Assembly (NCBI GenBank): GCA_029834535.1
Contig: JAQMWT010000187.1
Span: 1-20,217, forward strand
Length of the DNA: 20,217 nucleotides
Direction: 5' to 3'
Source of the DNA: Chrysophaeum taylorii
Taxonomy: Eukaryota > Sar > Pelagophyceae > Pelagomonadales > Pelagomonadaceae
A program made the translations under genes and the position numbers. The notes under the pieces were generated by a model. The model searched no databases. It was not told the DNA's origin and saw nothing but the letters and a program-made list of their open reading frames with translations. Below are positions 1 to 20,217 of the stretch, in pieces; positions within the stretch are counted from its first letter, which is position 1; every line of letters starts with the position of its first letter.

Positions 1-1762
1 TCTAGTCGACCTTGAAATTTCCGCAGTCGCACATATTCCGCATCCAGGCGTCTTTCTCTCGCATGCTGGGCCTCGGGTTCGCTTCCACTTCGGGCTATTC
101 CTGCTGCGTCGCGTATGCGCAGGGTTTCCTGCGGTCGCGCGGGTCGCGCGGCGGTGGGTTGGTGGGCTTGCCGGGGTGCGCCTTCTGCCACGCGTCGAAC
201 TGGATCTCGTGCCGGAGGATCAGGCTTTGTACTTCAGCGAAGGTGTTGTACTGGTTGGGCTGATCGCATCGCGCCATGTGAATCTTTTGCTGCAGCTTCG
301 TCGATGCCAGTCCGGCGATCATTTGGTGGATCATCTCGATGCTATCCATCCACGTTCCCGTCAGCGCCGTATAGGCCGTGGCCTCCTTCCGCAGCGACTT
401 GAGGTAGGTCAGAACCCAAGACTCGCCCTCCTTCGGCGTGATGGCTTGCGTGATGTTCCGGACTTTGAGGGACGCTCCCTCGGGTCGAGGCGCGGGCCAA
501 CAGGCTTGGCGGAGCTGCTGGAGGATTCGTTTCACGTGGGAAAGGTTCAGGTCGCGAAGCTGCCGGGTCTGTCCCTTGTACGGCATCTTGCTGTCGACGT
601 GGAATTGCAGATAAAACGACTCGTGGTGGCCGAGCGAAGTACGCAATGCCTCTGCCGCCATTCGCCCTTCCTCCAACGTCGGATTCACGGCCTGGCGCAC
701 GTTGTCCGCGAGGCCAAACGAAAGCGACTTGATGGCATAGTGGTCCTTCGACAACTCCCCGACGATGAGGGCGGCCTCGTGATCGAAGTGCCGCTGGTCC
801 TTGCCCTCGATGTCCAGCTTGATCATCTCCAACTCGAGGCGTCGGTGCTTCGGGGCGGCCGCGTCCTCGTATCCTCGGGAAGCCAGGGCGGTGGATGGCC
901 CTTGACCCGTTGCGGCCCTTACCAGCGCGGCGACGATCTTGTCGGCCTCCGTGGGCTCCTTCTCTTCCTCTTGGGCTCGCGTGCGATTCGCCTGCTCCGT
1001 GCGTCGGACCGGCGGTTCGCTGCTCGGCGGTTCGGAGTCGGATTCTTCGCGATCCGATCCGCGGGGCGATTCGGGTCGCGGTGATTGCGCTCGCTGCTCT
1101 CGACGCGTCTTTAGCGAGCGCAATTCCGCCCGGAGATCTTGGATCTGGGTCGCTGCGGCTTCGCGAGCGTGCTCCGCGTCCTCGCGAGCGCGTCGGAGCT
1201 CGTTCTGAAGGGCTTCCTTCAACTCGCGGGTGGCGGTTTCGAGTCGAGCCGTCGCCGCCTCCTCGATCTGCGCCGCGATTTCTTGGGCAATCAAGCTGCG
1301 CTCTTCCTCGCGCTCTTGCGCCTGCTTCTGTATCTCTCGGGCAAACCTATCGCGCTCTTCCTCGCGCTCTTGCGCTTGCTTTCGACTCTCCTCGTCTTGT
1401 ATTCGGATCCGCTCTTGCAGCAGGCTTCGCACTTCTTCATCTTGCCGGGTGCGCTGCTGCAGCTGGTCTTGGAGCAGCGATACCATCTCCCGCAGCTCGC
1501 GAACCTCTCGGGAGCTTTCGGCGGTGCGCTCGTCGGCTGGTTCGGTTCGAGTCGTAGTCGTGGCGCTTGGCTGCTCGCCCGTCGACTCTTCCTCCTTTCT
1601 CTCTTCGGCTTCTGCCGGTCTTTCGGTTTCTCGGCCTCGCTCGTGTTCGGCGGCCGGCGCCGGCGCGTGTGGCTGCGTCGGCGGGGTCTCTTTTTCTTCC
1701 GCCCCTTCTCTCCCGGCGTCGGTGGGGACGTCTTCGTCTCGTATAATGCGTCGCTTCGGCAT
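1..1762 (-). pseudogene. gag: Ty3/gypsy Gag polyprotein, left-edge element
   Basis: The reading frame starts at an ATG at 1762 with A at -3 and runs 555 codons to a TAG at 97-95. The first ~90 residues are acidic and low-complexity. Residues ~90-215 form a long Glu/Arg-rich coiled coil. Residues ~310-525 align with the Gag encoded on the plus strand at about 8350-9030: shared landmarks are GKDQRHF versus GRDQRQF, SFYLQF versus SFYLKF, TQAITPKEGESW versus TQASVPKKTGEW, and an I-x-G-L-x-S/T block. This is therefore a capsid-like retroelement Gag, not a host gene. After the TAG the same frame continues with a basic stretch and an MCDCGNF motif resembling the TCKDCGFF zinc-binding-like motif of the other Gag, until another TAG at 4-2. 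The TAG at 95 is thus probably an internal nonsense mutation. Pol would lie beyond the left edge. The gene is clearly more GC-rich than APC5. Confidence 0.85.
1298..1405 (-). repeat. 54-bp tandem repeat in Gag coiled coil
   Basis: Two adjacent copies of a 54-nt unit begin at 1298 and 1352 and share the run gcgctcttcctcgcgctctt. Each encodes an 18-residue coiled-coil block containing KQAQEREEER. In-frame duplication lengthened the Gag coil without breaking it. Confidence 0.7.
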
Positions 1763-3036: not shown

Positions 3037-6000
3037 TCATTCAACCACTTTGCTTGTAAGTCGAGTGAGATCGCAGAAGATAGAGGCAGCTTGATTGCGC
3101 TCACGAACCTGTCCTCCACATCGATCATGAATTCTCGCCTTCAGGTAGCACACTACTCTCATGAGAGACCAGCTCCTTCCAGCTCTGAATTTAATGAATG
3201 CATTTTCAAGAAAGTACAAGGCGCGTTCGTACGTAACAGCTGTGTTGTCACACGAGAGAGCCCAGACGAGCTGGAGCTCGCACAGAGTCAGCCATACCTT
3301 ACCCTGCATCAAGACCTGCGAAAACAGTCAAGATAAAAATGAGACAGACGTGAGACAAGAAAAGGCTATTGTAAATCATGTTCAAATGGTAGAACAGAGC
3401 AAATAGACACGAGACTGACACACACGTGCAAAAGCATGGCATAAGAGCAGTGTGGTCATCAAAGTGTCCCTCAGTCCAAGGCACCAGCTTGTACTGTGGG
3501 AAGTTTCCAAGTGCACTGGGTGTTCATTACCGGCGCGTGCTCAAGAACCTTCGGTGTGACACTCGAGAGAAGAATGGCTGCATGCTGCACGTAGCCAAGA
3601 CGGAGCTGGGCTGCCGCGAGTAGAGAAATTCCAAGTGCATGACCCGAATCGTCTGCAGCTTGTTCACACAGCACGAGACTCACAAGATACGGCCTCAGGG
3701 CGAGGACAGGATCACAGAAACTGCACGAGTCAGCAAGCATGCACCCCCACGCACGGTAAACGACAGCAGAACCATCTAAGCAACCCTGTGATCACACATG
3801 TCGTTAGACAGATCACTACATAGTGTTAGGTGTTCATAAAAAAACATGTGACTAAATTGTCGACACCGAGACTTACATATCTACAGCACCTTGATCCTGC
3901 ACTTAGGAACACAGCATTCGACGGCAGAAAATGCTGCTTCATGTTCCTATTTACCTTTATCTTCATAGTGGCATGACAAGGACTCGAATCGTTTTCTCCG
4001 TCACACACCAGGTCAGGGAACTTTGCGCCGTTGAGAATGTACGCGCGCTGAATTGATAACCAATCACTGAGCATGGAGCATAAAAGCTGATGTGGCGATG
4101 ATATCATGGAATGCGTAAGTCTTCTTTGAGCGCGAGAGATTTTGCCTGGTGTCTGGGAGGGTGCTTTCATATAATCCCTCCGTGTTCGCATAACGCTAGT
4201 AGTCTGGTTGCCAAAACCAAACCCTTTTTCCCCAAGATGTCGAGCTAATGCAACTGCAATGGTCAGACATGAAAGTTTGCTATGCCCGCAGCGCTTCCAT
4301 GCCGAGAGAGTAACAAGATCGCGGAATACGGATTTGTGCCGAATCAACACGGACGGCAGACAAAACGGATGCAACGTCGATGTATGGGTTTCGCGCGTCT
4401 GCGATCGCAACACAGCTAATGTACGCATCACCTCGACATCTATCGAGCGCACCGTGTGACTTGAACGGGATCGCCCAGACAAAGAACTGTAAGAGCATTT
4501 ACATCGCATGAGAGTATAATCAAAGCTGCCCATCGACGCCAAGGCCTTTAACCATGGCCACGCATGCAAGTTCGTTGCCACCCCCGGTTGGTAGCAAACA
4601 TTCATAACTGAATGTGCGGTATACGGAGGAACACTCGACAAGGCAGCCTGTTGTGAACCTAAGTTGTCTCGCATGTCAAGCGTGGCCGTAGACCGCATGA
4701 TGTGCACTGGACAGAATCCAGTGTCCAAACGGTGGCTTGCCATGGCAAGTGCCACGGCTGCACGCAGGTCACTCGAAACTATACTTAGATCGCTCAGGTC
4801 ACACTGATAGTCACAACTGTTGAAGACTCGAGCCGCGCATCGTGTGAGCTTATCACTCTCAGTGGATTGCATCTTACGACACCCAGTGTGTAAGTGATGT
4901 GGTACACTGTAAATGTCCCCACCTTGCTTCAGACATGAGGCACCGCATGTGCTAGAGGGATTAATCTTCTGATTAATTCCCATCAAAGCACATTTGTGAT
5001 GGGCACAAACCAGTTCCAAGTAATGCAGCCATGCTATTGCATATGTTACGCAAGTGTGGTCACGGCGCTGCTGCGCAATTCTCAAGGCTTCCTCCACAGA
5101 AATAGCTGCGGCACTGGTGTCGCCAAACCGGAATTGTAAGACAGCCAGGCTCAACGCGGCATACTGTACCATGCCATGATGTTTGCCGTTCAGGTCACAT
5201 TCCTGGACATGATCATGAAATCTGTGAAGACTATCCACCGAACCTTGAAACTCGCGCTGACTTAAGAAGAACTTAAGTCTTAACAGTTCTGCGTGCGCAG
5301 AATCCACTGCCAGGGTCATACCTGTATCTTGTGGATGTCTAACACTGCCGTTTGGATAAAAGAGGGCACAGCTGCCGCGGTTATTGCAGATGTTGATTAC
5401 ACGGTTTGTCTCATTGTCACTTCGAGAGCGCATGTGTGACAATTTGCTCCATGGATGCGATGAACCACCAAATACAAACACATGCAAATCATCATAGCAG
5501 TCGGCTAAAGAATCAAACAAGCCTAGGGCATTTCCCAGCGCTCGTCGGATGTAACTGCCAATCTTGCTCGCAGGATCAAGACAGAGCATACCATTGTTTT
5601 CACAAAGCCATTTTGTTTGGCCAAGCTCCACGTAAGCATTCGGATATACGCAGCGTCTTAAGTCATGAAGCACATCGAGGATGGCATGTGGTGACTCACA
5701 AAGTTGGCGCAAAACTGCACGGATCCAATATTCAACTGCAACGCAAGTAACAGAGGTCTCTTTATCGAAATCTGATGTACATCCATCAGGAAAGCCATCC
5801 ATCTGCGCTTCTCTTAGTTCCACCAGAAAAATATCAAGGGATGGACAACCTACTGCCCTACAGGGTACACGGCGTACATGTGAATTTATCCTTCGTAACA
5901 GCCACTTAAGCAACCTTCGAGCACACTCGGAACGAAGTTCTGGCATTTGACGCAACAATCCTGCGAGTCGATGCTTCCTATCGTGATTGCAAATCAATTG

Positions 6001-6069
6001 ACCGGGGGAGATTGAAGTTCGAGTCAACTCGAGCAGGAGGACCATGGTGACCGCGTGTGGTCTTTCCAT
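3037..6069 (-). CDS. APC5: Anaphase-promoting complex subunit 5 (three exons)
   Basis: APC5 is a TPR-containing scaffold subunit of the APC/C ubiquitin ligase, which drives exit from mitosis in the nucleus. Exons are 6069-3877, 3785-3531 and 3315-3037, joined in phase 0, for 908 residues. Animal APC5 is about 750 residues and plant APC5 about 900. The N-terminus (PHAVTMVLLLELTRTS) matches the family start. Residues ~297-350 carry the APC5 TPR signature: a YAALSLAVLQFRFGD helix pair, then EEALRIAQQRRDHTCVTYAIAWL. Exon 2 encodes the LRLGY...LLSSVTPKVLEHAP segment. Exon 3 encodes the family's C-terminal block, with YLKARIHDRCG followed by RERNQAASIF, and ends in TGA. The start at 6069 is the first ATG and fits the family alignment. 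No frameshift or internal stop was found, so the gene looks functional. Exon 1 has a long, less conserved segment at residues ~360-700. The identity is confident; the exact end of exon 2 is less so. Confidence 0.88.
3316..3530 (-). other. APC5 intron 2 (215 nt)
   Basis: The proposed donor is CCG|GTAATG at 3530 and the acceptor is TTTTCGCAG|GTC at 3316, after a pyrimidine-rich tract. Splicing is phase 0 and joins LEHAP to VLMQGKVWL, as expected for the family. The acceptor is convincing. The donor is weaker than that of intron 1 and could be displaced by a few codons. Confidence 0.65.
3786..3876 (-). other. APC5 intron 1 (91 nt)
   Basis: The donor is TAT|GTAAGT at 3876 and the acceptor is CACAG|GGT at 3786. 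A CTAAC branch-site-like motif (TGTCTAACGAC) lies about 20 nt before the acceptor. The unspliced frame hits TAA at 3826. Removing the intron joins two APC5-like segments in phase 0. Confidence 0.8.
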
Positions 6070-6212: not shown

Positions 6213-6905
6213 ATCTTCTTTTCCGCGCGAGTCATAACTCGCGTTGGGGCGCAGACAAAGGTGTGTGGGAACTCGGAGAAGGAATGGTGTGATGCTAGGG
6301 CGGTGATGGGAGAAGGGTCGTAGCCCGTGGAGTGCACCATCACGCGGGTGGAGGCGGAAATCGGGGGGACAGCGACTTTCGAACGATGATGAAGATCGGG
6401 CAGGAGGGCCCGATGATCGGGCGGCAGAAGCCGCGGGAGGGGCATGTTCAGGGATGGGGTTGCCGGGGCCGTCATGGCCGTAGGTGGCATGGTCTTGTGG
6501 AAAGGAGTGGTTGTCGTGGCGAGTAGATGGGAGCGGGTGATGGGGAACTTGAGAAGGAAATGGTGGAGAGGGAGTCGCCGAAAATAGGGAGGAAGGCTCC
6601 AGTGAAGGAGGTGGAGCCTCCGGTGGCGTTGGTGGAGTGAAGGGGGTAATGAAGAGTGGTAGTGGAGTGTTCAACATCGCTGGTGTGATATTCGAACAAG
6701 GTGGAGTGTCATCGTGGAGATTCGAACAAGGTGGAGTGTCATCATGGAGATGGGGAGTGCCAGGTTGTGGAGTAACTTTGGCTATACCGGGGTCTGGAGT
6801 GACGGCTGTGGGGGCCGAGACTTTGACGTGGGGTGTTTGACATCCGGCGGGGTGGATGGCAGAAGGTGGAGGTTGTCCATGTTCGAGAACGAGTTGTGGC
6901 GGCAA
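6195..6905 (-). CDS. Proline-rich hypothetical ORF, doubtful
   Basis: A 236-codon open frame lies on the same strand as APC5 and 125 bp upstream of it. The product would be rich in Pro, Ser, Thr and His, with no recognisable domain, membrane segment or signal peptide. It contains two copies of LHDDTPPCSN produced by a 30-bp tandem repeat. Its base composition (G-rich on the plus strand) alone could keep this frame open, and an HSE-like array overlaps its end. It may be a rapidly evolving gene, retroelement debris or a chance frame; I favour chance or debris. No function is assigned. Confidence 0.25.
   Translation of the reverse strand: MPPQLVLEHGQPPPSAIHPAGCQTPHVKVSAPTAVTPDPGIAKVTPQPGTPHLHDDTPPCSNLHDDTPPCSNITPAMLNTPLPLFITPFTPPTPPEAPPPSLEPSSLFSATPSPPFPSQVPHHPLPSTRHDNHSFPQDHATYGHDGPGNPIPEHAPPAASAARSSGPPARSSSSFESRCPPDFRLHPRDGALHGLRPFSHHRPSITPFLLRVPTHLCLRPNASYDSRGKEDGNFWK
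6691..6750. repeat. 30-bp tandem repeat, two copies
   Basis: The unit beginning ttcgaacaaggtggagtgtc occurs at 6691 and again at 6721, with a single g/a difference near its end. It lies inside the doubtful proline-rich frame and stays in phase with it. Confidence 0.8.
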
Positions 6906-7654
6906 CTCCTGACCGCTAAGGCTTACCCTCCCTTTCTCGAGGCTTGATGCCCGTTCAACGGGACGCCTTTCCCCACCTTCCTAGTGACATCATACCTCTC
7001 TCTTGTGAGAAGCATTCTTGTAGTATTCTTGCAGCATTCTTGCTATCATGTACCATCTCTCCATCTTGTTGAGAGGCTTGGTGAGCGTGAGCAAGGTGTG
7101 TGGCGAGCATATCCGACCCCGAGTCTATGTTTTCCTCGTTCAGTGGGGTCTAGGACGAGTCGGTGAGTGCCCCCTTTGTCACCAGGGGGTCGGGAGTGGT
7201 TTTTCTGTGCCGCCATACGTGGTGGAGTACACGAGATCGTGCGACTACATCGGTCGCCGACGAACGAGTGCTGCCGTACGTATTGTATTACGTGGTCCGG
7301 ATTTGTACGTGTGCCCTGATCAAGCACGCGGAGTTCCAGTGGACCGGTTTGCGTTGAGAATATACGCGAACTTTATTGTGTTCGTGCGTTCCGAGAGACG
7401 ACGAACACGCGTGCGAGTTGGAAATCGCAGCGCATTCTCCCGGGAATTGATTTTGGTAGAGCTGAACGGCGGAAGCTGTTAGCGAGTGGGATCGCTACCC
7501 ACGGGCATTTTGGGGCATTTTGGATTGCCAGCGGATTGGAATTCCGTGAGTGCTGTTTTTACAGCGACAGATAGCGTTGTTGGGATCAACGTGCATTACT
7601 TCGAGTGATCGGATCCGGACGTGTTTCGAGATTCTCATCGACATTTGATATAGT
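6906..7654 (+). other. Presumed 5' LTR/leader of plus-strand gypsy
   Basis: No gene is supported here. By position it should contain the 5' LTR and leader of the gypsy element whose gag begins at 7655. No 3' LTR is present for comparison, so the limits are unknown. Three 11-bp near-repeats (agcattcttgt, agtattcttgc, agcattcttgc) lie at 7011-7043. A direct repeat of cattttgg occurs around 7505-7523. I could not identify a convincing tRNA primer-binding site. Confidence 0.3.
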
Positions 7655-9885
7655 ATGGATACAGACGCAGACGTGCGTGAGGCAGAGTCTCCTCCAGTTC
7701 TTCCCGCCGCCCCTGAGATAGGCCGCGAGGAAGGTGAATTAAGAGAGGCCGAGGCAGTCGACGTTGCTGACTTGCCCCCTGACGTGCCTCCGGATACTGC
7801 CATTTTTCGCCGCTGAGTCCAACGACCCCGGACCGTGGCGAGCGTGTTACGATTGAGCGCGGATCTGCAGCCCGAAGTCGACTTCATGAAGACCTCGAGC
7901 GGAGACGTCACGAAAATGAACGATTAGCTGAGCGTTTTTGCCCGTGAAAGCCTGACGCGAAAGAGGAAGCGGCTCGACGGGAAGTTGACATGCTCAATGA
8001 CGCATTGCAGCAAGAGATTGAGACATCGAAGACCCTACGTGAAGAGGTTGAACGATTTCGTCGTGAACGAGATGAATTGTTAGCCGAACGTACGCGTCGT
8101 GAGAGTAGCCGCGAACGACCCGTGAGTCGACCCAAACCGGAAACGCCCGTGAGGCTGCCTGAACCGGAAAGGAACACTGAAACGGGGAATGAACATCCGC
8201 CCCGAGTCGACACGGAGACTGAGGGTAGGGCGGAAGCTGAGGATGAAGGTACGAAAATTTTGCGGGGATTATCGCGGGGAATAACGCAGACGGTTGCGGA
8301 TCCCTTCGAAAAGGCCAACTTGAGCCGATCCCGTCGCCCCACTTCCAGTTTGAAGCCTGACAACTTCAAACTCGTCATCGACGGCCGAGATCAACGGCAA
8401 TTCAATTTGGATCAACGGCAATTCAATTTGGATTCGGCAGCGGTGATGCATACTTTAGCGGAAAACCATTACTCGGTCGAGAAATTACGTTACTTATTAC
8501 CGGTGCATCTACGGGACACCGTTGCACCAATTTTTGAGGAACACTTGCGGAAATATGAGGAGCTCTGCGATGAGCTACCGCACGGTCCGTCGTTTTACTT
8601 GAAATTTGATGCTGACGATGAAGAGCATGGAGCCTCGGTTCGTCGCATCCGTCGTCTTAATAAGACGTATTGCGCTAAAATTCTGGATTACTTTAGATCG
8701 ACTTGCCGACCTCCGAGCACGCAGCAGGAGCTGCTCGGCAAGCTGCGGAAGGTCACCCAGGCTTCAGTTCCGAAGAAGACTGGGGAGTGGCACGTGCAGA
8801 CGTATTGTACCAAATTTCAATCGGAGGCCTTGGCTTTTTTTTCCGTATCCAGCCGCACGATGGATGATGTCGATATCCTCGACAAGCTTATCAGTGGGTT
8901 GACATCCAAGGAGTTGAGGACCCGTGTGCGGACTATGAGGGGCGGACATCCTGATAGTTACTTGACTTTTAAGTCGATGGTGTTGCTTATTACGCGGCTC
9001 GAGAACGACTTGCGAAAGTTGATGGAGGAGGAGAAGGACCAAGGCCCTCCTAATCCGAAATCGAATAAACCGCCGCGAGGGCGGGGAGGTCGAGCTATGG
9101 CCTCCGATCAACAAGCCAAGCAAGATGCGGATAAGCCGTCTGGGAATACGGATCCGCTGATCTTACGAGATCCTTCTTGGTGGTGCAAGAAGACGTGCAA
9201 GGACTGCGGATTCTTCTGGACCATCCATGATGAAGATGAACACGGAAATCGCGTGGTTTGCAACCGCGATCCGGACCGTTATTACTGTGCGATGTGGAAG
9301 CGCATTCGAATGCAGAAGAAGCAACCCATATCGCGTTCCGATTGGGAGAAGCGTGATGATGCATCTCATGCGAACGCCACGCGCGGATCGGAGCCTTCTA
9401 ATGAAATTCAAACGGCCCTCACCGAGCTTGGAACCACAATGGCGACCATGGTGAGCGAGGTCAGAGGCATCAAGGATAGCAAATCGTCTTCTACACGACA
9501 GCGAGACGGACGATCACCTTCTAGACGATCGTCGCGCCGACATCGAAGCAAGAGCCCTGATCGAAAGGCCAGTACTCCTCAAAACAGCCCGAGTCCCCGC
9601 CGTCGCCGCCATAGCCGGAGCTCTAGTAGCAATTCGCGCCGGCGCAGACGTCATCGACAGCGCGATGACGAATATGACGGAGGCCGATATCAGGATAGTT
9701 CGAGACATTCGAGCGCAACTTTCGCGTTCCGATCTTTATGCGACGCGCCGCCATCGTCGGGAGTTGTCTTTTACCCGACGGCGCGCCCCGCCCGAGTCTC
9801 CGATGATGTTGCCGATGTCGCTGTGACTAGCAGCAATCGCTTGCAACAGGAGCAAAATACCACCAACGCTCGGATCGTTCGGTAG
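7655..9885 (+). pseudogene. gag: Gag of plus-strand gypsy, with SR-type tail
   Basis: Translation from the ATG at 7655 gives an acidic N-terminus, then loses frame near 7805-7814 (T5 run). A second pair of apparent compensating indels lies at about 7936-7960, where the nominal frame reads TGA at 7945. From 7990 the frame is open for 631 codons to TAG at 9883-9885. Features in order: a coiled coil (~7990-8110), the conserved capsid-like block shared with the left-edge Gag (~8350-9030), a Cys/His cluster with WCKKTCKDCGFFW and later C residues (~9175-9300) that could bind zinc, and an Arg/Ser-rich segment (~9484-9669). Gag packages element RNA; the Cys/His and Arg-rich parts are the expected nucleic-acid binders. 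The downstream pol region is in the same frame after the TAG, which could be a stop, a decayed codon or a readthrough site. Confidence 0.82.
8389..8430 (+). repeat. 21-bp tandem duplication inside gag
   Basis: A 21-bp unit, gatcaacggcaattcaattt plus g, occurs twice without mismatch at 8389-8409 and 8410-8430. It duplicates DQRQFNL in frame. The left-edge Gag has this segment only once (DQRHFDH), so the duplication is specific to this copy or family. Perfect identity suggests it is recent. Confidence 0.9.
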
Positions 9886-10386
9886 CCTTCTACATCGTAT
9901 GTGGAAGCAATATCAGATGCCACTTTGGATTCTCTGTGGGGAGACTCAGATTCGGAGACCGACGAACCCATGCCGCAGGTTCCAGTGTCCCCCCATTCGT
10001 CAATGTGCATGTCTTGCGGGGCAGTTCACGATGATGACGGTAGACCTTTTGAGTTGACGTCGGGGACGACGTCTTTTCCTACGCCCCCCCCGAGACCGTT
10101 TTAGCTGATACCGTTTTAGCCGATGTTGAGACCGTTTCGATGTTTTAGCGATACAGTTTTGGTCGCAGCAGAGCAGACCACAGCGGCGCAGATGGAGGAG
10201 AAGTTGACGGGAATGTCCGATTTGATGGACGAGAAACGACGATTGCCAGAAGAGATAAAGGAGGAAATATATGTGCCTCCGTTTGAGAAGTGTCAGAATT
10301 TGTTGTCAGCGAAACTGGGGAATGAGGAAGCAGCCGAAGCGGCGAGCGCCAATGTATATTCATAGGCGAGATGTGGAACGCCAGAT
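9886..10386 (+). pseudogene. Gag-Pol spacer coding region, unknown domain
   Basis: This region is in the same frame as gag and as the protease, and is interrupted by TAG at 9883-9885 and 10363-10365. TAGs at 10102 and 10117 lie in a locally shifted segment: between the C8 run at ~10084-10091 and the TTTT at ~10143-10146 another frame reads ETVLADTVLADVETVSMF, which fits better than the nominal one. The encoded protein is acidic, with a CMSC pair near 10012 and a Glu/Lys-rich helical stretch from ~10190 to 10345. I recognise no domain. It may be the N-terminal part of Pol. Confidence 0.5.
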
Positions 10387-10950
10387 ATGGCATCGGTGAC
10401 GATGCAGATGCCGGGCGATGCGAAACCGGAGATACGATGTCATCACACTGCACTTTCGCCGAGCGATGGGGAAAAGATCGAGCAAGACCTCGTCACCATC
10501 GGTTGTTTGGACCCTGGTACACTTACGTTTATAAATGGTCATATTTATAGACGACGAGACGGGCCGAAGTTCGCAACGACTTTAGGCGTGGATGGAATGG
10601 CTGATGTCTCCTATATTTGTCGTGGGATGGTCGAAAAACTGGCAAAGGATAGCATCATCCTTGACCGGGGCGATCTTCCAGTCGAGCGCACCCTGTACGG
10701 GTCAGGATTGAACAAGACGACTATCCACAAATGGGTCGCATTGCGGATTGCGCTTGCGGACGACGTGGCCGTTCCAGTTGTTGCTATTGTGGCCGATACT
10801 AATCATCTATTTTTGCTGGGAGCGCGCGATATTCGGGTGTTGGGAGCCATAGTGGACTACCCGCGAAATCGCATTGCGTTTCTCCGCACACAAGTCGCTT
10901 ATGGGCGCAAGAAGTTAAAGGTGCAGGATCGACGAGTCGATTCTCCGATT
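10387..10950 (+). pseudogene. pol: Retropepsin-like aspartic protease domain of gypsy Pol
   Basis: Within the 648-codon frame that starts at 10387, residues ~60-170 have retropepsin architecture. The catalytic loop is TLGVDGMADVSYI (Asp69), a mid-domain strand precedes PVVAIVADT, and the C-terminal LLGARDIRVLGAIVDY (~143-158) matches the family's I/L-L-G-x-D motif followed by a hydrophobic strand. The usual triad D-T/S-G is here D-G-M, so the Thr/Ser and Gly positions are altered while Asp and the following A-D-V-S are kept. That may mean an inactive or unusual protease. Its role would be polyprotein maturation inside virus-like particles. The segment from ~10950 to 11700 is a poorly conserved linker without recognised motifs. 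Confidence 0.65.
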
Positions 10951-11739
10951 TTGACGTTCAGAACAACTTATGACGAGCGCAATCCCGTGGTAGTTCAGGT
11001 TTATGGGCAACAGCACCATGCGATGCAAAAGAGCCTGAGCACAGTTGAGAGCCGAGTCTACGCTCGCTTGTGCAAGATTAAAGACCTCCAGCGTCCACCG
11101 CCGAAACGAGCGGGAGCTTCGACGACTTGGGGAGTCCCTCCAGTTACGCCTTCTCAAAGTTCGAACAGCGATGCCTATGAAGTGATAGCCTATGCTGCGC
11201 GCACGATGAAGGTCGAGCCTGGGCGCACCTACTGCGTGCCAGTCGCTCTTTCAGAGCCCATGGAAACCGGGCAAGTTTTCGTTGCTACGTCTTCTGGGTA
11301 CGAGCAACTCGGGGTAGTCGATGGAATGTGTTCTTCTCCTGAGGATCATGATAAGTTCGCAGCTCGAGTGGCGATATCCTCTACCCAGGATGTGCCGACC
11401 GTGATTACTCAAGGTGAAGTCCTTGCTTTGGGCGATATTGTTCGTTTTGATGACGAGCTGAATGCTGAGACGGTCGACGATTTAACGAAGGATGGTGAAG
11501 CCGAATCTAACAAGGCTAACCTATCATTCACTGTTTCGGTCGCAAGCCATCTGACTCAAGGCGATGCGGCTCCCGAACCGATGCTTTTGAGCTCGGTGCA
11601 GAAGGCGTCTCCTTCTGCCGATAAGAAGAAGAATTCTCGTCAAGAATCGCTCGGTAACGACGATTTCGACCGACGAACTGACGAGGAGGAAAAGAAATGC
11701 CGAGAAGTTACAGAAGGCGAGATTCGCCGAAGGTTTGAA

Positions 11740-12620
11740 AAGGTCCACTGGGTGCCGATCACGTATCGCAAGGTTGTGATGCTCTTTAGCGGCGCCGGAG
11801 GAAGTACTTTAGGACTGCAACGAGCGAACGAGTTGTGCGGGACGTCGTTTCGAGTCGTCCTTGCTCTTGACTCTTCAACAGCTGCCAACAAGGTTCATCA
11901 GAAGAATTTTCCGAAGATACCTGTGGTTCAGCACACGCTCTGCGGACGATATGACTCGACCCTCCGATTGATCAAGGCTTATTTGCCTGAAGCGGAATGG
12001 TCATCGTCGATGTGTATAGCGTCTCCACCCTGCGTTCATTCAGCACTCTGCAACTTGACATCCAGAGATGTTGGCAGGGGTGTTACGGCCACTAATTGGA
12101 CGATGAAGCTGTGCAAAATGGCTGGCTTCATGATGTGGCTGATTGAACAGGAGGCGTCCATTATTTCTTATATAGCGCGCTTACACCCTTACGTGTACGT
12201 CGTCAATTTTCATGATATCACGCCCACTCTGATGAGCTCTCGCGTGCGATTGTTGGTTTCCAGTCACCCACTGCACTTGCAAGAGGCTCCGAAGACATGT
12301 GTGAACATGCAACAAAATTTGCTGCAGCTTTAGGTTATGCTCATGAACGCCACCTGCTCCAGCTGAATAATCTCGGCTCGTCCCGAGAAGCAACAGATAC
12401 GGCTTACACCGTTACGCGAGTTCCTCTTCGTTTGGGACCGCATCGCTCGGACACTCAGCCTTTGACTCTCGAGATGACGGCCGAGTTGCTCACGATGCCG
12501 GTGGACCATGATTGGGCTAGCTTGTCTAAGACAGATTCGTTCAAACATTTAGCGTCTGTCGTCCCTCCAGACACTCTTGCGATTTTAGCAGTCGATCTGC
12601 ACAACTCCGTGACCAGAGGT
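11740..12620 (+). pseudogene. C5-cytosine DNA methyltransferase domain in gypsy Pol
   Basis: This domain would transfer a methyl group from S-adenosylmethionine to cytosine C5. Motif I is MLFSGAGGSTLGLQ (11779-11820). Motif II-like is VVLALDSSTAANKVHQKNFP. Motif IV is ASPPC, with the catalytic Cys at 12031-12033. Motif VI appears as WLIEQE: Glu (12145-12147) is kept but the usual ENV is EQE. Motif VIII ends in SSRVRLL (Arg at 12241 and 12247). After a single-base shift near 12250 the next frame continues with IVGF, a short target-recognition region, motif IX PLTLEMTAELLTMP, and motif X LASVVPPDTLAILAVDL, ending ~12605. It is fused in frame downstream of the protease and upstream of RT. The frameshift makes this copy nonfunctional unless frameshifting occurs. 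A host gene is unlikely because it lies inside one Pol frame. Confidence 0.88.
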
Positions 12621-14200
12621 TTCCGCCAAAGTGGCGAAGTCCTGCCGACCGCGTTGAGCCCGACAGATCGATCCTTTGAGCAGTATTTGCGAATCTCCGA
12701 CACCACCTTTCGTCACGTACAGATTCCGCTGTTAAATACGCGTACTCGTGTCGTTAAGTGGGTGTCAAAAGATGATCTCCAGGATCCCACTAAATGGGAA
12801 CCGCCAGAAGTCCCTATGCTTCCGCTTCCAACAGATGCGCCGGGGACGGCTCATGCTTTTCTGCTGGGCACCCCCGACAATCAAAAGTGGACGTTCCGCC
12901 GGATCCTGAACCTGAACAGGAGCCGAAAGTAAGGAGCGAGCCGAATGTGCGCGTCAAAGGTGAAAAGATCAATAAGAGCCACCCTGAGGTGAGGTTCAAA
13001 TACGAAGAAAAGTTCGATGTGCCATGGAAGGATGCGCCGCGCGATGCGGACGGTGTACCGTTACCGCAGACTCCTGAGCACGTCAAGGACAATGAGGCGA
13101 TGAAAGTCGTAATTCCGACGAAGGAAGAAGTCGAAAAGGTTGTTCGAGAACTGGGAATTCCCGACAACCCGCATCTGGATGATGATGCGAAGATGATGTT
13201 GAGCCACTGCGTGCAATACGCGTGGGCTTTTTTTGATCCGATTATGAGACCCGTGGACTCGCCACCGGTTTCTCTACGATTTAAAGACGCAAACCCACGA
13301 CCGATCAAGATGACGCCTTATAGGTTGACGCCAGCAAAGCTCGAGTGTCTCAGAAAGCAGATCACTGAGTGGTGTCGCGATGGAGTCATCCGACCGGCGA
13401 ACTCTCCGTGGGGATTCCCTGTACTGATGCTGCCTAAGAAGGGAGCAGAGGCCGGGACGTCGAATGCTTTTCGTGCTGCAGTTGACTTGCGTCAGCTCAA
13501 TGATCAGCTGGTCAATGACAGTTGGCCGAATATTCGTCAAGATGATGCTTTGGCTTTTCTTGCCATGCGCCGTTGGCGGACGTGCATTGATATTCGATCG
13601 GGTTATCATAACCTACGTTTGGACGCCGGCGCTCAGGACGCCGTTACGATGGTTAGTCCACTTGGGGCCCGTAGTTTCTTGCGCTTGCCTCTGGGAGTAA
13701 AAACAGCCGGAGCTCTCTTTTGTAAGCAGATGGCTAGCGATTTGTCCACATGGATGTATAAGGACTTGGTCGCGTTTGTCGACGATATTATGATGGGATC
13801 GGATGAACTCCACCGACATTTACAAGTATTGATTGAAGTGTTGTGCCATTTAGTGCAGCGAGGATATAGTGGACGAACTTCGAAGTTCCATCTCCTCGAG
13901 GATGAAATCGAGTTTTTGGGACACATTTCGACTCCGGAAGGCTTGAAGCCGAATCCCAAGACGTTAGAAGCGTTGCAGCAGATGCCGATTCCCGGTACGT
14001 TGCCTAACACGTCCCCGAAGACCCAGATTCGATCTTTCATCGGCACGAGAAACTATTGCCGCCGATATGTGAAGAATTGTTCGAAGATTGTGGAGCCGCT
14101 GTGGAGAGATTTGACCCACTCCGGGTACATGGTAGAGACTGCGTGCAGTCTTAGGCGTGTACAGACCATTCCGCTTGTCACATGCTACTACACAAGGTAG
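12621..14200 (+). pseudogene. pol: Gypsy reverse transcriptase, truncated after thumb
   Basis: A linker follows the methyltransferase. Near 12880 the frame shifts again: one frame ends in TAA at 12930-12932, while the open RT frame continues to 14200. RT motifs, numbered from the first start in that frame (12794), are: RLTPAKLECL...WCRDGVIRPANSPWGFPVLMLPKK (~177-216); VDLRQLN (230-236); CIDIRSGYHNL with catalytic Asp266; SPLGARSFLRLPLG (288-301); AFVDDIMM with FVDD at 328-331; and FLGHI near 374-378. The connection segment IRSFIGTRNYCRRYVKNCSKIVEPL follows. After DLTHSG (~14130) similarity ends; the last ~25 codons are probably foreign sequence. RNase H and integrase are absent. The RT copies element RNA into cDNA. 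The catalytic Asp residues are intact, but the reading frame from gag is not. Confidence 0.9.
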
Positions 14201-16331: not shown

Positions 16332-18349
16332 TTAACCATCTTGTTGAGCTATGGGTTGTTGTAAGCCGAGTAACACGCGAAATCTGCTGAAGAGCGGAGC
16401 TCCAAAGGGTTTGGTAAATCCATCGGCGATATTGTGGGTACCGGAAACATGATGTAGGCGTATTCGTTTTAACTGTACGTAGTCGCGTATACGGAACCAG
16501 CGTGTGCTGATAGCTTTAGCCTTAGTCGCGCTATCGGGGTTATTTGATATATGAATAACAGAGGCCGAATCTCCAAGTATAGGACTGTTACGTATGAACG
16601 ACATGTCCGATGGGAGGGGATTGTCGTGAGCATCATAATCTAGTCGCAGATCCCTGAAGGTTGGCGGAGATAGAAGTGGGGATTTATAACGAATGCCATT
16701 TCCGTTAGCAATTTGCGCAACCAAACCACATCATCGGCACACATATTAAGGGCGATAAGTTCACTCTCATGCGTAGAAGTAGCTGTAATAGGTTGTAGCT
16801 TAGACTTACAAGTGATGAGAGAACCAAACAAAAAGATAGCGCAACCGGTTGTAGATTTGCGGTCTTGTTCATAAGAGTGTGCATTATCGGCATCAACGAA
16901 TGCGACCAATGGATCAAAATTACCTGAATTAACTTGTTCTTTAGTGTAATCCAACATGGTGGCCATGTCAGTACGATTACCGACAAGAAGTCGAAGATGG
17001 TCCATTAGAGCGGAAGAGCCAGAGTAGTACCAGAGGCGAAGATTGCGATTTTCGCTCTTGCGCGAGTAGCGGAGCGTTCCTGTTGGTACTTGAACATGTA
17101 GAAATACTGGATTATGCATTCCTCGAGAGCAACGACTAAGGCTTTGGGATAAATCAGGGCGACAAGCTAATTGGACAAAAGTAAGTTTGCCGAGTAAGGT
17201 AGAGAAGGTATGAAGAATAAACTTGTCCATATCAGAAGATGGCTCTCCAGTTTTATACGTGGTTGATGGTGACATCGGTGTAGAAGTGGGACGTAACTGC
17301 ATTAAAATGGGGTACTCTTCGAACAATGCGTCAAGTTTAGCCTGACAATCCAGTGATATAGAGCCATCTGTTTTACGCGTTATGCGCATGCCTAGGAGAG
17401 TATGGACTTCCTCGAAGGTGTCGACTGAGTATTCCTTTTTCAGGGCTTGCTGGAGCTCACGACGTAGAGTTTCCGAAGTACAAGTAATGACGACGTCGTC
17501 TACTGAGAGCGTGCAAATTCGAAATGTAGCGTCAGCTTGGACTTTAGCGTAAATGCATCTGTCTGTTCGAAATCGTGTGTAGCCTAATGAATCAAAGAAG
17601 CTGTTTATGGTTTGATTCCAAAGGGCAGGGCTCTGACGCAATCTATAGAGAGATTTAAGTAGCTTTGGAAGACGGCGGCCTTGGTATTTAGTATCTTCGG
17701 GATCGAGAAGGTAAATGCCTTTTGGCAGTTTAACATAGACATGCGAATCGATGGGAGCTTGAACAAAAGCGTTGGGGACGTCGACATGATAGACGGGAAG
17801 TCGCAGATGAGCTGCTAGCGCCAAAACACAACGGATGCCGGTAAGCTGCGCCATAGGGCTGAATGTGTTGAAGAAATCGGTGCCCAGAGAGGCTAAGAAT
17901 CCTCGTAGTACCAGGCGTGCTTTATGTTTAATGTACTGACCAGCAGCGTTGGTTTTTATACATAGGACGAGACGGGTATCAATAGGCTTCGAGTTGACCA
18001 TTGGCAGCGCTAGTTTAAAGCAGCCAAACTCAACAATGTCAAAAATCTCATTGGAGATGGCAGCAACATAAGCTTTGCGATCAGCGTCTGAGTGACCTTT
18101 GAGGCAGGTCAACTCATATTCATCAATTTTGATATCTTTGGCTTGAATCTTGTATTCGTCCGAACCAACCGTGCTGGGGTCATGAGTCGTCGTCAGATAA
18201 GTAATTGCGTAGGAAGCGACATTATCGAGCAGATGATCGTGATCGGGATCTTCGATGAGTTGAACGACTAGTAGAGGAGCATCACCAAGGTGGGCTTCGA
18301 TGTAATGCGATTGCACGGTGATATAGTCTTCGATGGCGGAGAGATGAGG
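16332..18349 (-). pseudogene. pol: Copia Pol: reverse transcriptase and RNase H
   Basis: The main frame is open from 18349 to 16640, directly after an in-frame TAA at 18352-18350. Numbering from 18316, RT motifs are: DTRLVLCIKTNAAGQYIKHK then ARLVLRGF (113-140); FSPMAQLTGIRCVLALAA (152-169); HVDVPNAFVQAPID with catalytic Asp179; LYRLRQSPALW (223-233); and CTLSVDDVVI at 268-277, where the usual Tyr of YVDD is Ser. LLGMRI and LLGKLTFVQLACRPDLS follow. RNase H has FVDADNAHS (473-481), RKSTTG (486-491) and STHESELIAL (514-523). Near 16700 the frame shifts; the last RNase H part (HISNNPDSATKAKAIS, HVSGTHNIADGFTKPFG) is in the frame ending with TAA at 16334-16332. Catalytic acidic residues are present, but the frameshift and upstream TAA break the polyprotein. 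Confidence 0.92.
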
Positions 18350-19250: not shown

Positions 19251-20217
19251 ACCACATAAGACCTGTATCGAGATGGGAGCCAGGCCGGACCGCAGGTTGC
19301 CAAACGCAATCACAGAGGAAAATTCACGCAGTTGTTGGGCACATTGCGGGGCGATGGGGGACGAACTTGTTGGGGGTGGACTTTCAATGCCGACGGTCTT
19401 GTGAGAGGTCTACGAAGCGTATAACAGCCCACGGGTAGTGTGGTGCCGGATCGACCTTCCGTCTTAAGCATATGCTAAATGATTACATGGGGTGTTATTA
19501 AAAGGGTTTTAATGTTAGCACCACATAAGTAGATGTAGGGACGGCATCGGGGTTCAATATTTATGAAATTCGTTAGGTTCCAAATGCAAATAACAAACAG
19601 AACCAAAAGGTTTGAGTAGTCTTGTTGGGAACTTACTTGGTCTAACAAAACTTGTTGGGGGCTTAGGACTTTATTATAAATACGTTCGAAGGAAACGTTA
19701 GGAGAGAGATTATACGATTGGATAGGCATGATAACAGCCCACGGGTAGTGTTGTGCCGGATCTGTTAGGGGTGACCTTTATAGGATACATTAAGCATATG
19801 CCTGAGTTCGTGTAGACGCGGCAGTGGCTATGTGACCAACAGCGGCTTCGACTTCATGATTAAAGACATGTAATTAAGAGGGGAACGCGGGGACATATTA
19901 ATACCATGTTCCACACGGAAGGGGGTTGTAACATCTGGGATAAATAGGGTTTAAAGGAATCACAATAAATTTGTTTTAGTTGTACATGAACACAATAGAG
20001 CAAAAATTACGAACAAACTCAAGGGCGTTACAAAATTCGCTGGAGTTGGTGCTACGACGAAAGTACACTAACAGAAATTTAGAAATGAGGCACTTGAAAA
20101 CAATGATATGTCGAAAGGATCCCCATTCCGAGAGCACAGAGACGTAACCACCGTCACATGCCCAGCTTCACCAGGTTAAAAATTTTCGAATGATGGTTGC
20201 TGATAAGGTGGTGTGGA
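19251..20217. other. Gene-free AT-rich stretch with decayed duplication
   Basis: No gene is supported in this last kilobase. It contains a diverged direct duplication with a spacing of roughly 285-310 bp. It may be retroelement leader or LTR sequence, but no second LTR is available for comparison. The integrase core expected upstream of the copia RT was not readable here. Confidence 0.4.
19363..19801. repeat. Diverged direct duplication, units ~300 bp apart
   Basis: Unit 1 (19363-19475) and unit 2 (19648-19801) share three blocks in the same order: aacttgttggggg near 19363 and 19648; a 31-bp block starting ataacagcccacgggtagtg at 19421 and 19731 with one mismatch; and taagcatatgc at about 19465 and 19790. 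Spacing inside the units differs by small indels. This is an old tandem duplication or paired subterminal repeats. Confidence 0.75.

Follow-up and report, generated by a model that had tools for sequence, protein, structure and literature searches.

Cytosine methylation usually serves to silence transposons. DNA methyltransferases (DNMTs) are also carried by retrotransposons themselves: de Mendoza et al. (2018, PMC5890265) describe them in Symbiodinium, where they sit in DIRS and LINE elements, and in Klebsormidium, where the carrier is a Gypsy element. The initial annotation of the locus described here likewise named C5-methyltransferases (C5-MTases) inside retrotransposons of dinoflagellates and charophyte algae. 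In the same text, the DNMTs of SymbioDIRS-Dnmt3 methylate CG de novo in yeast, and the results for the LINE and Klebsormidium enzymes are inconclusive. SymbioDIRS-Dnmt3 and SymbioLINE-Dnmt are high-copy retrotransposons with C5-MTases, residing in genomes with Dnmt5 and Dnmt2, while KnitGypsy-Dnmt3 of Klebsormidium nitens is a Gypsy element with its C5-MTase inside the Pol polyprotein (PMC5890265). LTR Copia elements with DNMT3 are named in one sentence of the accessible text of PMC12344493, which cites the 2018 work; the wording may be a slip, since the 2018 text says Gypsy for the streptophyte element. Sola1-1 of Ectocarpus, as described in the available part of PMC12477816, is another mobile element that brings a DNA methyltransferase along and may use it to mark its own DNA.

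The window, that is, the whole stretch of DNA analysed here (contig C187, positions 1-20217), encodes a C5-methyltransferase-like domain at 11713-12611, with a protease-like stretch before it and a Ty3/gypsy reverse transcriptase (RT) after it. As in KnitGypsy-Dnmt3, the element is a Gypsy with a C5-MTase inside Pol, and purifying selection is seen in both (Ka/Ks < 0.2 in KnitGypsy-Dnmt3 and 0.08-0.10 here). KnitGypsy-Dnmt3 is a Dnmt3 by its tree and has DIRS-like repeats, whereas the element here has plain LTRs, seen in one copy, and an MTase of weak placement; the host probably belongs to another lineage than Klebsormidium nitens, KnitGypsy-Dnmt3 being compared by its description in the available text (PMC5890265). 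The Symbiodinium elements are DIRS and LINE elements, while those here are LTR gypsy and copia elements in which rve, but no tyrosine recombinase, is recognised by Pfam. Sola1-1, unlike the gypsy element, is a DNA transposon whose methyltransferase is of the N4C/N6A class and lies in a separate gene (PMC12477816). DNMT2/TRDMT1 and the bacterial and phage dcm-type C5-MTases resemble the gypsy domain from motif I to motif IV, although both retrotransposon domains of this genome are far from all 19 reference enzymes. None of the available texts of PMC9998398, PMC6338049, PMC12477816 and PMC11244446 reports an LTR element with a C5-MTase from another alga, and a literature search by title and start of abstract, with most subscription journals outside its scope, returned no report describing the gypsy family. 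DNMT-bearing retrotransposons are thus already known; what is new is the host lineage, probably, and the plain-LTR layout of protease-like region, MTase and RT. Further new points are a copia family that shares the genome and has an MTase of its own, built as a gag-like ORF followed by protease-like region, MTase, integrase and RT in one frame, and a DNMT5-type gene in the same genome.

The features of the element in the window, all on the + strand, are as follows.
6895..6928, +, beginning of the 5' LTR (TGTGGCGGCAACTCC...), 34 bases that match the LTR starts of the copy on contig C5 at 85-88%
7948..9885, +, gag-like ORF of 645 aa, named by its position and without a Pfam family
10366..12333, +, 5' part of the pol ORF, 655 aa, with the protease-like region and the N half of the MTase
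10585..10614, +, protease-like motif VDGMADVSY, by motif reading only
11713..12321, +, N part of the MTase domain, motifs I to VIII by reading
11782..11802, +, motif I LFSGAGG, SAM binding
12022..12033, +, motif IV SPPC, whose candidate catalytic Cys is encoded at 12031-12033, aligned by hhalign to the Pro-Cys column of the references
12142..12156, +, candidate motif VI IEQEA, in place of ENV, 39 aa from PC
12235..12252, +, candidate motif VIII SSRVRL, by motif reading
12216..12932, +, ORF in another frame covering the C part of the MTase, in which candidate motifs IX and X lie, and the linker that leads to the RT
12459..12611, +, candidate motifs IX (PLTLEMTAEL, 12459-12488) and X (LHNSV, 12597-12611)
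12558..12587, +, the string VVPPDTLAIL, located in the window
12794..14200, +, RT ORF in the third frame, RVT_1 5.8e-14 (Pfam)

The C5-MTase motif strings claimed in the initial annotation are all where it placed them, including the Cys codon, and the domain does stand ahead of a Ty3/gypsy RT. Its aspartic protease is motif-like (VDGMADVSY), with no Pfam protease match at E <= 10. The single frame shift proposed at ~12250 has to be revised: the reading frame changes a first time within the MTase, somewhere in 12,273-12,333, and a second time ahead of the RT, so that the N part of the MTase, its C part and the RT are in frames 0, 2 and 1. The N part is 83.7% identical over 203 aa to the open MTase of the contig-C5 copy, and the stretch from 12273 to 12857 is 69.7% identical to the same copy; the ORF 12216..12932 gives no Pfam match by itself. 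RNase H and integrase are missing from the window because sister copies can be followed only as far as 14,100-14,107; the 3' LTR is missing as well. With two frame changes and a break-off at about 14,100, the window copy is dead. On its 5' side the element adjoins an ORF matching anaphase-promoting complex subunit 5 (3829-6069, -; PF12862, 5.2e-17). A distant Ty1/copia element lies at 16643-18349 (-) and 19988-20155 (-), where the window ends (RVT_2 8.8e-40); it is separate from the gypsy element and 32-33% identical to the copia copy L054 described below. Short direct repeats of 54, 30 and 32 nt are found at 1278-1385, 6687-6746 and 19421-19762, respectively.

The window copy is one of many. 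In the assembly searched (70.8 Mb in 697 contigs), the signature of the catalytic loop occurs at 306 places and that of the RT at 302, with none for either signature read backward; both signatures demand exact motifs, and these counts are lower bounds. Pairing covered the places listed up to contig C183, leaving out those of the window itself (99 RT and 90 loop places). Among these, 65 of 99 RT places are preceded on their own strand by a loop at a distance of 1.5-2.9 kb, which is 1.73-1.77 kb in 53 of the 65; an exact loop is missing upstream in the other 34, some of which may be copies with a clean empty site, and an RT motif is missing downstream in 25 of the 90 loop places. Searching the assembly with the ORF 10366-12333 gives at least 74 matches (68 of 1346 candidates scored), one cluster being mostly 81-100% identical and another ~70%. 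MTase similarity is present upstream in 11 of 12 RT loci cut out, a set that includes the window itself and three copies also found among the loci of the protease-MTase ORF (in L044 it is the C part alone, as far as the locus covers). The exception, L042 (C105:119768 region), has no MTase similarity at 1e-5 and an RT 95% identical to that of the window; its sequence passes directly from the equivalent of window position 10252 to that of 12804, with a 7-base overlap. Since protease region and MTase are missing together, L042 is a deletion and no ancestral empty site, and none of the 12 RT loci is a copy that lacks the MTase with clean flanks. Another locus, L047, was considered as a module swap with a diverged MTase (47%, 6 stops) and rejected, being a decayed copy 91% identical to the window by nucleotides.

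The intact frame that the window lacks is found on contig C5 (L051, L052), where a single open frame of 3063 aa between two LTRs encodes, downstream of a protease-like motif, MTase, RVT_1, RT_RNaseH, Integrase_H2C2 and rve, in this order. The LTRs are 341 bp long and 98.2% identical (C5:544100-544439 and C5:554039-554379), with TG...CA ends by reading; no clear target-site duplication is seen by reading at this copy. Two gypsy-element copies with an open frame of >3060 aa each stand 24 kb apart at C5:525016 and C5:549074. The initial annotation's call for further copies with protease, MTase and RT in frame is answered by the contig-C5 copy, with its protease-like motif. The data support the MTase as a regular component of a Ty3/gypsy family of LTR retrotransposons that is present in many copies, rather than as a one-off insertion.

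Profile comparison supports the gypsy domain as a C5-MTase, although only motifs I-IV are secure at the level of sequence. The PF00145 search proposed at the outset gives a match for the window piece 11740-12330 (E=1.2e-4, 22.1 bits, cut-off 22), while within the whole window ORF the score is 19.4 bits, below the cut-off of 22; the absence of the window copy from the PF00145 matches of the whole-genome profile search is consistent with this weak score. Fourteen copies of the gypsy MTase are stop-free, and PF00145 matches all 10 of those scanned. The contig-C5 copy behaves like the window, with 19.0 bits in the long ORF (cut-off 22) and 24.7 for the domain alone. By itself the gypsy domain has only C5/DNA methyltransferase families among its matches with E <= 0.002; for the contig-C5 copy, these include TIGR00675 dcm (E=0.0018, at 17.9 bits against a cut-off of 100.65) and the phage DNA methyltransferase families phrog_116 (1.4e-6) and phrog_363 (about 1e-6), all three matching at residues 20-75, that is, motif I and the stretch that follows it. 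An alignment of 10 gypsy copies (A1, leaving out L019, L025, L038 and L041, the last being the same copy as L013) was compared by hhalign with 19 C5-MTases, namely 8 phage and 9 plasmid enzymes and the host DNMT2 and DNMT5; the phage locus L056, which has no annotation, was left out. The two profiles align with a probability of 96.1% and E=3.1e-9 for a single comparison, and SPPC is aligned to the Pro-Cys loop, a column in which 3 of the 19 references do not have the letters PC. Reversed controls reach a probability of 0.1-0.2%. The PDB chains found with the gypsy domain are DNMT2 enzymes only, at an insignificant E of 0.15-0.44; tblastn against phages has an insignificant best E of 0.4; protein-database searches, some of which saw only proteins of similar total length, and viral scans with the gypsy and copia domains return no relatives; and a single-sequence fold of window 11713-12312 has a pLDDT of 30.9.

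The hhalign statistic covers motifs I to IV, and the names of motifs VI, VIII, IX and X were given by pattern reading to strings that we take to be their equivalents. The part with motifs VI-VIII is not significant in hhalign on its own. The part with motifs IX/X of the sister copies aligns weakly with the C-terminal end of C5-MTases (E=0.024; reversed 0.059). The string IEQE follows PC by 39 residues, and among the 16 references with both strings EN stands at 38-44 in 14 and at 48-50 in 2, although the whole-domain hhalign alignment pairs the reference ENV with a stretch other than IEQE. NFxDITPxLMSxRVR is motif VIII-like by reading, its RxR appearing as CRVR or SRVR at a plausible spacing. 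Across 38 loci, some of them broken or partial, the exact string of motif I is present in 31, that of IV in 33, of VI in 31, of VIII in 32 and of X in 31, and IEQ and CRV are recognisable in all 3 of 3 older, broken, distant copies picked by their loop, RVQ replacing RVR in one. Catalysis by the gypsy MTase is likely but not secured, since EQE takes the place of ENV in motif VI and profile comparison misses the stretch of motifs VI-VIII when it is used alone.

Between the subfamily B copy L051 and eight copies of subfamily A, the Ka/Ks of the MTase is 0.08-0.10 at Ks 1.4-1.6 in all 8 pairs, which shows that purifying selection held the MTase as a protein between subfamilies A and B. The RT, with Ka/Ks of 0.02-0.03 (5 of 10 loci gave a comparable frame), is more constrained than the MTase. 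When one pair is divided into parts, Ka/Ks is 0.05 in the N part, with the SAM site and the loop, and 0.23 in the linker, while Ks is saturated in the TRD-X part and gives no ratio. Four pairs within subfamily A range from 0.08 to 0.43, as expected for copies decaying since insertion. On all this evidence, we give a probability of about 0.7 to the main reading, that the MTase domain is present as a regular part of the gypsy family and is kept by purifying selection between subfamilies.

The same observations weigh on an account in which a host MTase gene was inserted by chance into one copy, or in which the motifs coincide without homology. It could appeal to the broken frame of the window, to a Pfam score at the cut-off and to the missing domain in 1 of 12 RT loci, but L042 is also without the protease region, and 306 loop signatures, a near-constant spacing to the RT, a Ka/Ks of ~0.09 between subfamilies and an hhalign E of 3e-9 make it a very remote one. 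A domain devoid of catalysis, kept in Pol as a structural or DNA/RNA-binding module, deserves more attention and is still unlikely: EQE instead of ENV in motif VI, the failure of the profile to recover motifs VI-VIII and the missing mutational trace of 5mC, described below, would suit it, but such a module does not readily explain why the SPPC loop is kept at 306 places, why Ka/Ks falls to 0.05 in the N part (one pair) or why IEQ is kept in distant copies.

About equally doubtful is an enzyme that acts on RNA, either the genomic RNA of the element or its tRNA primer, rather than on DNA. DNMT2 is a tRNA methyltransferase, and it is DNMT2 alone that the gypsy domain reaches among PDB chains, if at the insignificant E of 0.15-0.44; a trace of CpG deamination is absent, and RNA methylation is raised for SymbioLINE-Dnmt in the available text of de Mendoza et al. 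(PMC5890265). The likeness to DNMT2 is, however, largely that of motif I and the following stretch, which is common to C5-MTases at large, and DNA methyltransferase families score better (phrog_116 1.4e-6, TIGR00675 0.0018).

An MTase active on DNA might act on the element that encodes it. Once the Pol polyprotein is processed, the MTase would be released from between the protease-like region and the RT, and could methylate the double-stranded DNA of the element, either at the cDNA stage or shortly after integration; the host DNMT5-type enzyme could then copy such marks. New insertions so marked might look like host DNA, or their expression might be toned down. We regard methylation of the element's own DNA in this manner as possible, with somewhat less than an even chance; the SymbioDIRS-Dnmt3 enzymes that methylate CG in yeast are a precedent (PMC5890265). 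Lasting CpG methylation is expected to leave more CpG transitions behind. The singletons of 38 copies, with 3 duplicates dropped, show no such excess (odds ratio 1.06, p=0.70), with 62 singleton transitions per 12,636 site-copies at CpG, 30 per 6,155 at CHG and 97 per 21,361 at CHH, and no NCN context reaches p<0.05, the highest being ACG (18 observed for 12.6 expected, p=0.09). These counts argue against CpG methylation of the copies that is both strong and lasting, unless repair is good; the test is blind to a brief methylation of cDNA.

The gypsy family is not the only MTase-bearing element in this genome. At least 57 PF00145 matches are found genome-wide (123 of 474 candidates scored, introns ignored), of which 49 lie beyond two host genes and six loci (L003-L008; C96, C120 and others) that were read further and all belong to a Ty1/copia family. 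Copy L054 (1399-8951) of this family has a gag-like ORF without a Pfam family, followed by a frame of 1952 aa with a protease-like motif, an MTase (PF00145 1.1e-7), an integrase (weak, 0.006) and RVT_2 (1.6e-38). Its protease-MTase piece has at least 87 matches in the assembly (78 of 722 candidates scored), and the catalytic signature FTLPCQHL occurs at 108 exact places, the backward control at 0. L053 is another locus of the family. In hhalign the copia MTase is aligned with C5-MTases at a probability of 97.5% (E=5.9e-12); the alignment takes in PCQ, ENV and the region of motif VIII, while the C end is not recovered. Of 10 pairs compared, nine have a copia MTase Ka/Ks of 0.11-0.17, and the closest pair has 0.30.

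The two host genes are a DNMT2 gene on contig C634 (L001:1498-2577, +; 1g55, 3.9e-39) and a DNMT5-type gene on contig C621 (L002:1006-3537), whose open frame of 2086 aa matches 7r76 (3e-143), an assignment based on residues 46-685, with the SNF2 part outside the comparison. The DNMT2 gene adjoins a light-harvesting protein at about 990-1450 (-), with VCPI-6 as its best PDB match (2.3e-17); because C634 also bears a gypsy RT copy, the DNMT2 gene, the light-harvesting protein and the gypsy element belong to one genome. Judged from such proteins, the host is probably a photosynthetic alga with a plastid of the red lineage, perhaps a stramenopile; Perkinsus, considered as a host, was rejected in view of the light-harvesting protein. 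Among the 123 of 474 PF00145 candidates scored, with introns ignored, the clearest host DNA methyltransferase is predicted to be a maintenance-type DNMT5, and a DNMT1 or DNMT3 gene may be present besides it. In the available text of PMC10538959, DNMT5 is called a maintenance methyltransferase and C. neoformans is said to be without de novo activity.

The origins of the two retrotransposon MTases are probably separate. By hhalign, the gypsy MTase and the copia MTase are not similar to each other (probability 0.2%). In a tree of 24 rows, whose 19 references are phage, plasmid and host DNMT2/DNMT5 enzymes, with Dnmt1, Dnmt3 and the known retrotransposon DNMTs outside the set, the stems of both measure 3.4-3.5, where the median end branch is 0.74, and their placement is weak; neither a single clade of the two (p-AU 0.277) nor a grouping of the gypsy MTase with the host DNMT5 (AU p=0.191) is rejected. 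An independent capture of the gypsy MTase is plausible from these comparisons, and two captures, one for each family, are likely. The most far-reaching account would be that in one genome a Ty3/gypsy and a Ty1/copia element separately took different C5-MTases to a position just after the protease, and that the elements methylate de novo what the DNMT5-type enzyme maintains; taken as a whole, we consider it improbable.

That two LTR superfamilies conserve C5-MTase domains in one genome suggests a recurring advantage from the enzyme. With a DNMT5-type gene alongside, heritable methylation seeded by an element is testable in one organism and, if it is true, selfish DNA would write marks that its host inherits.
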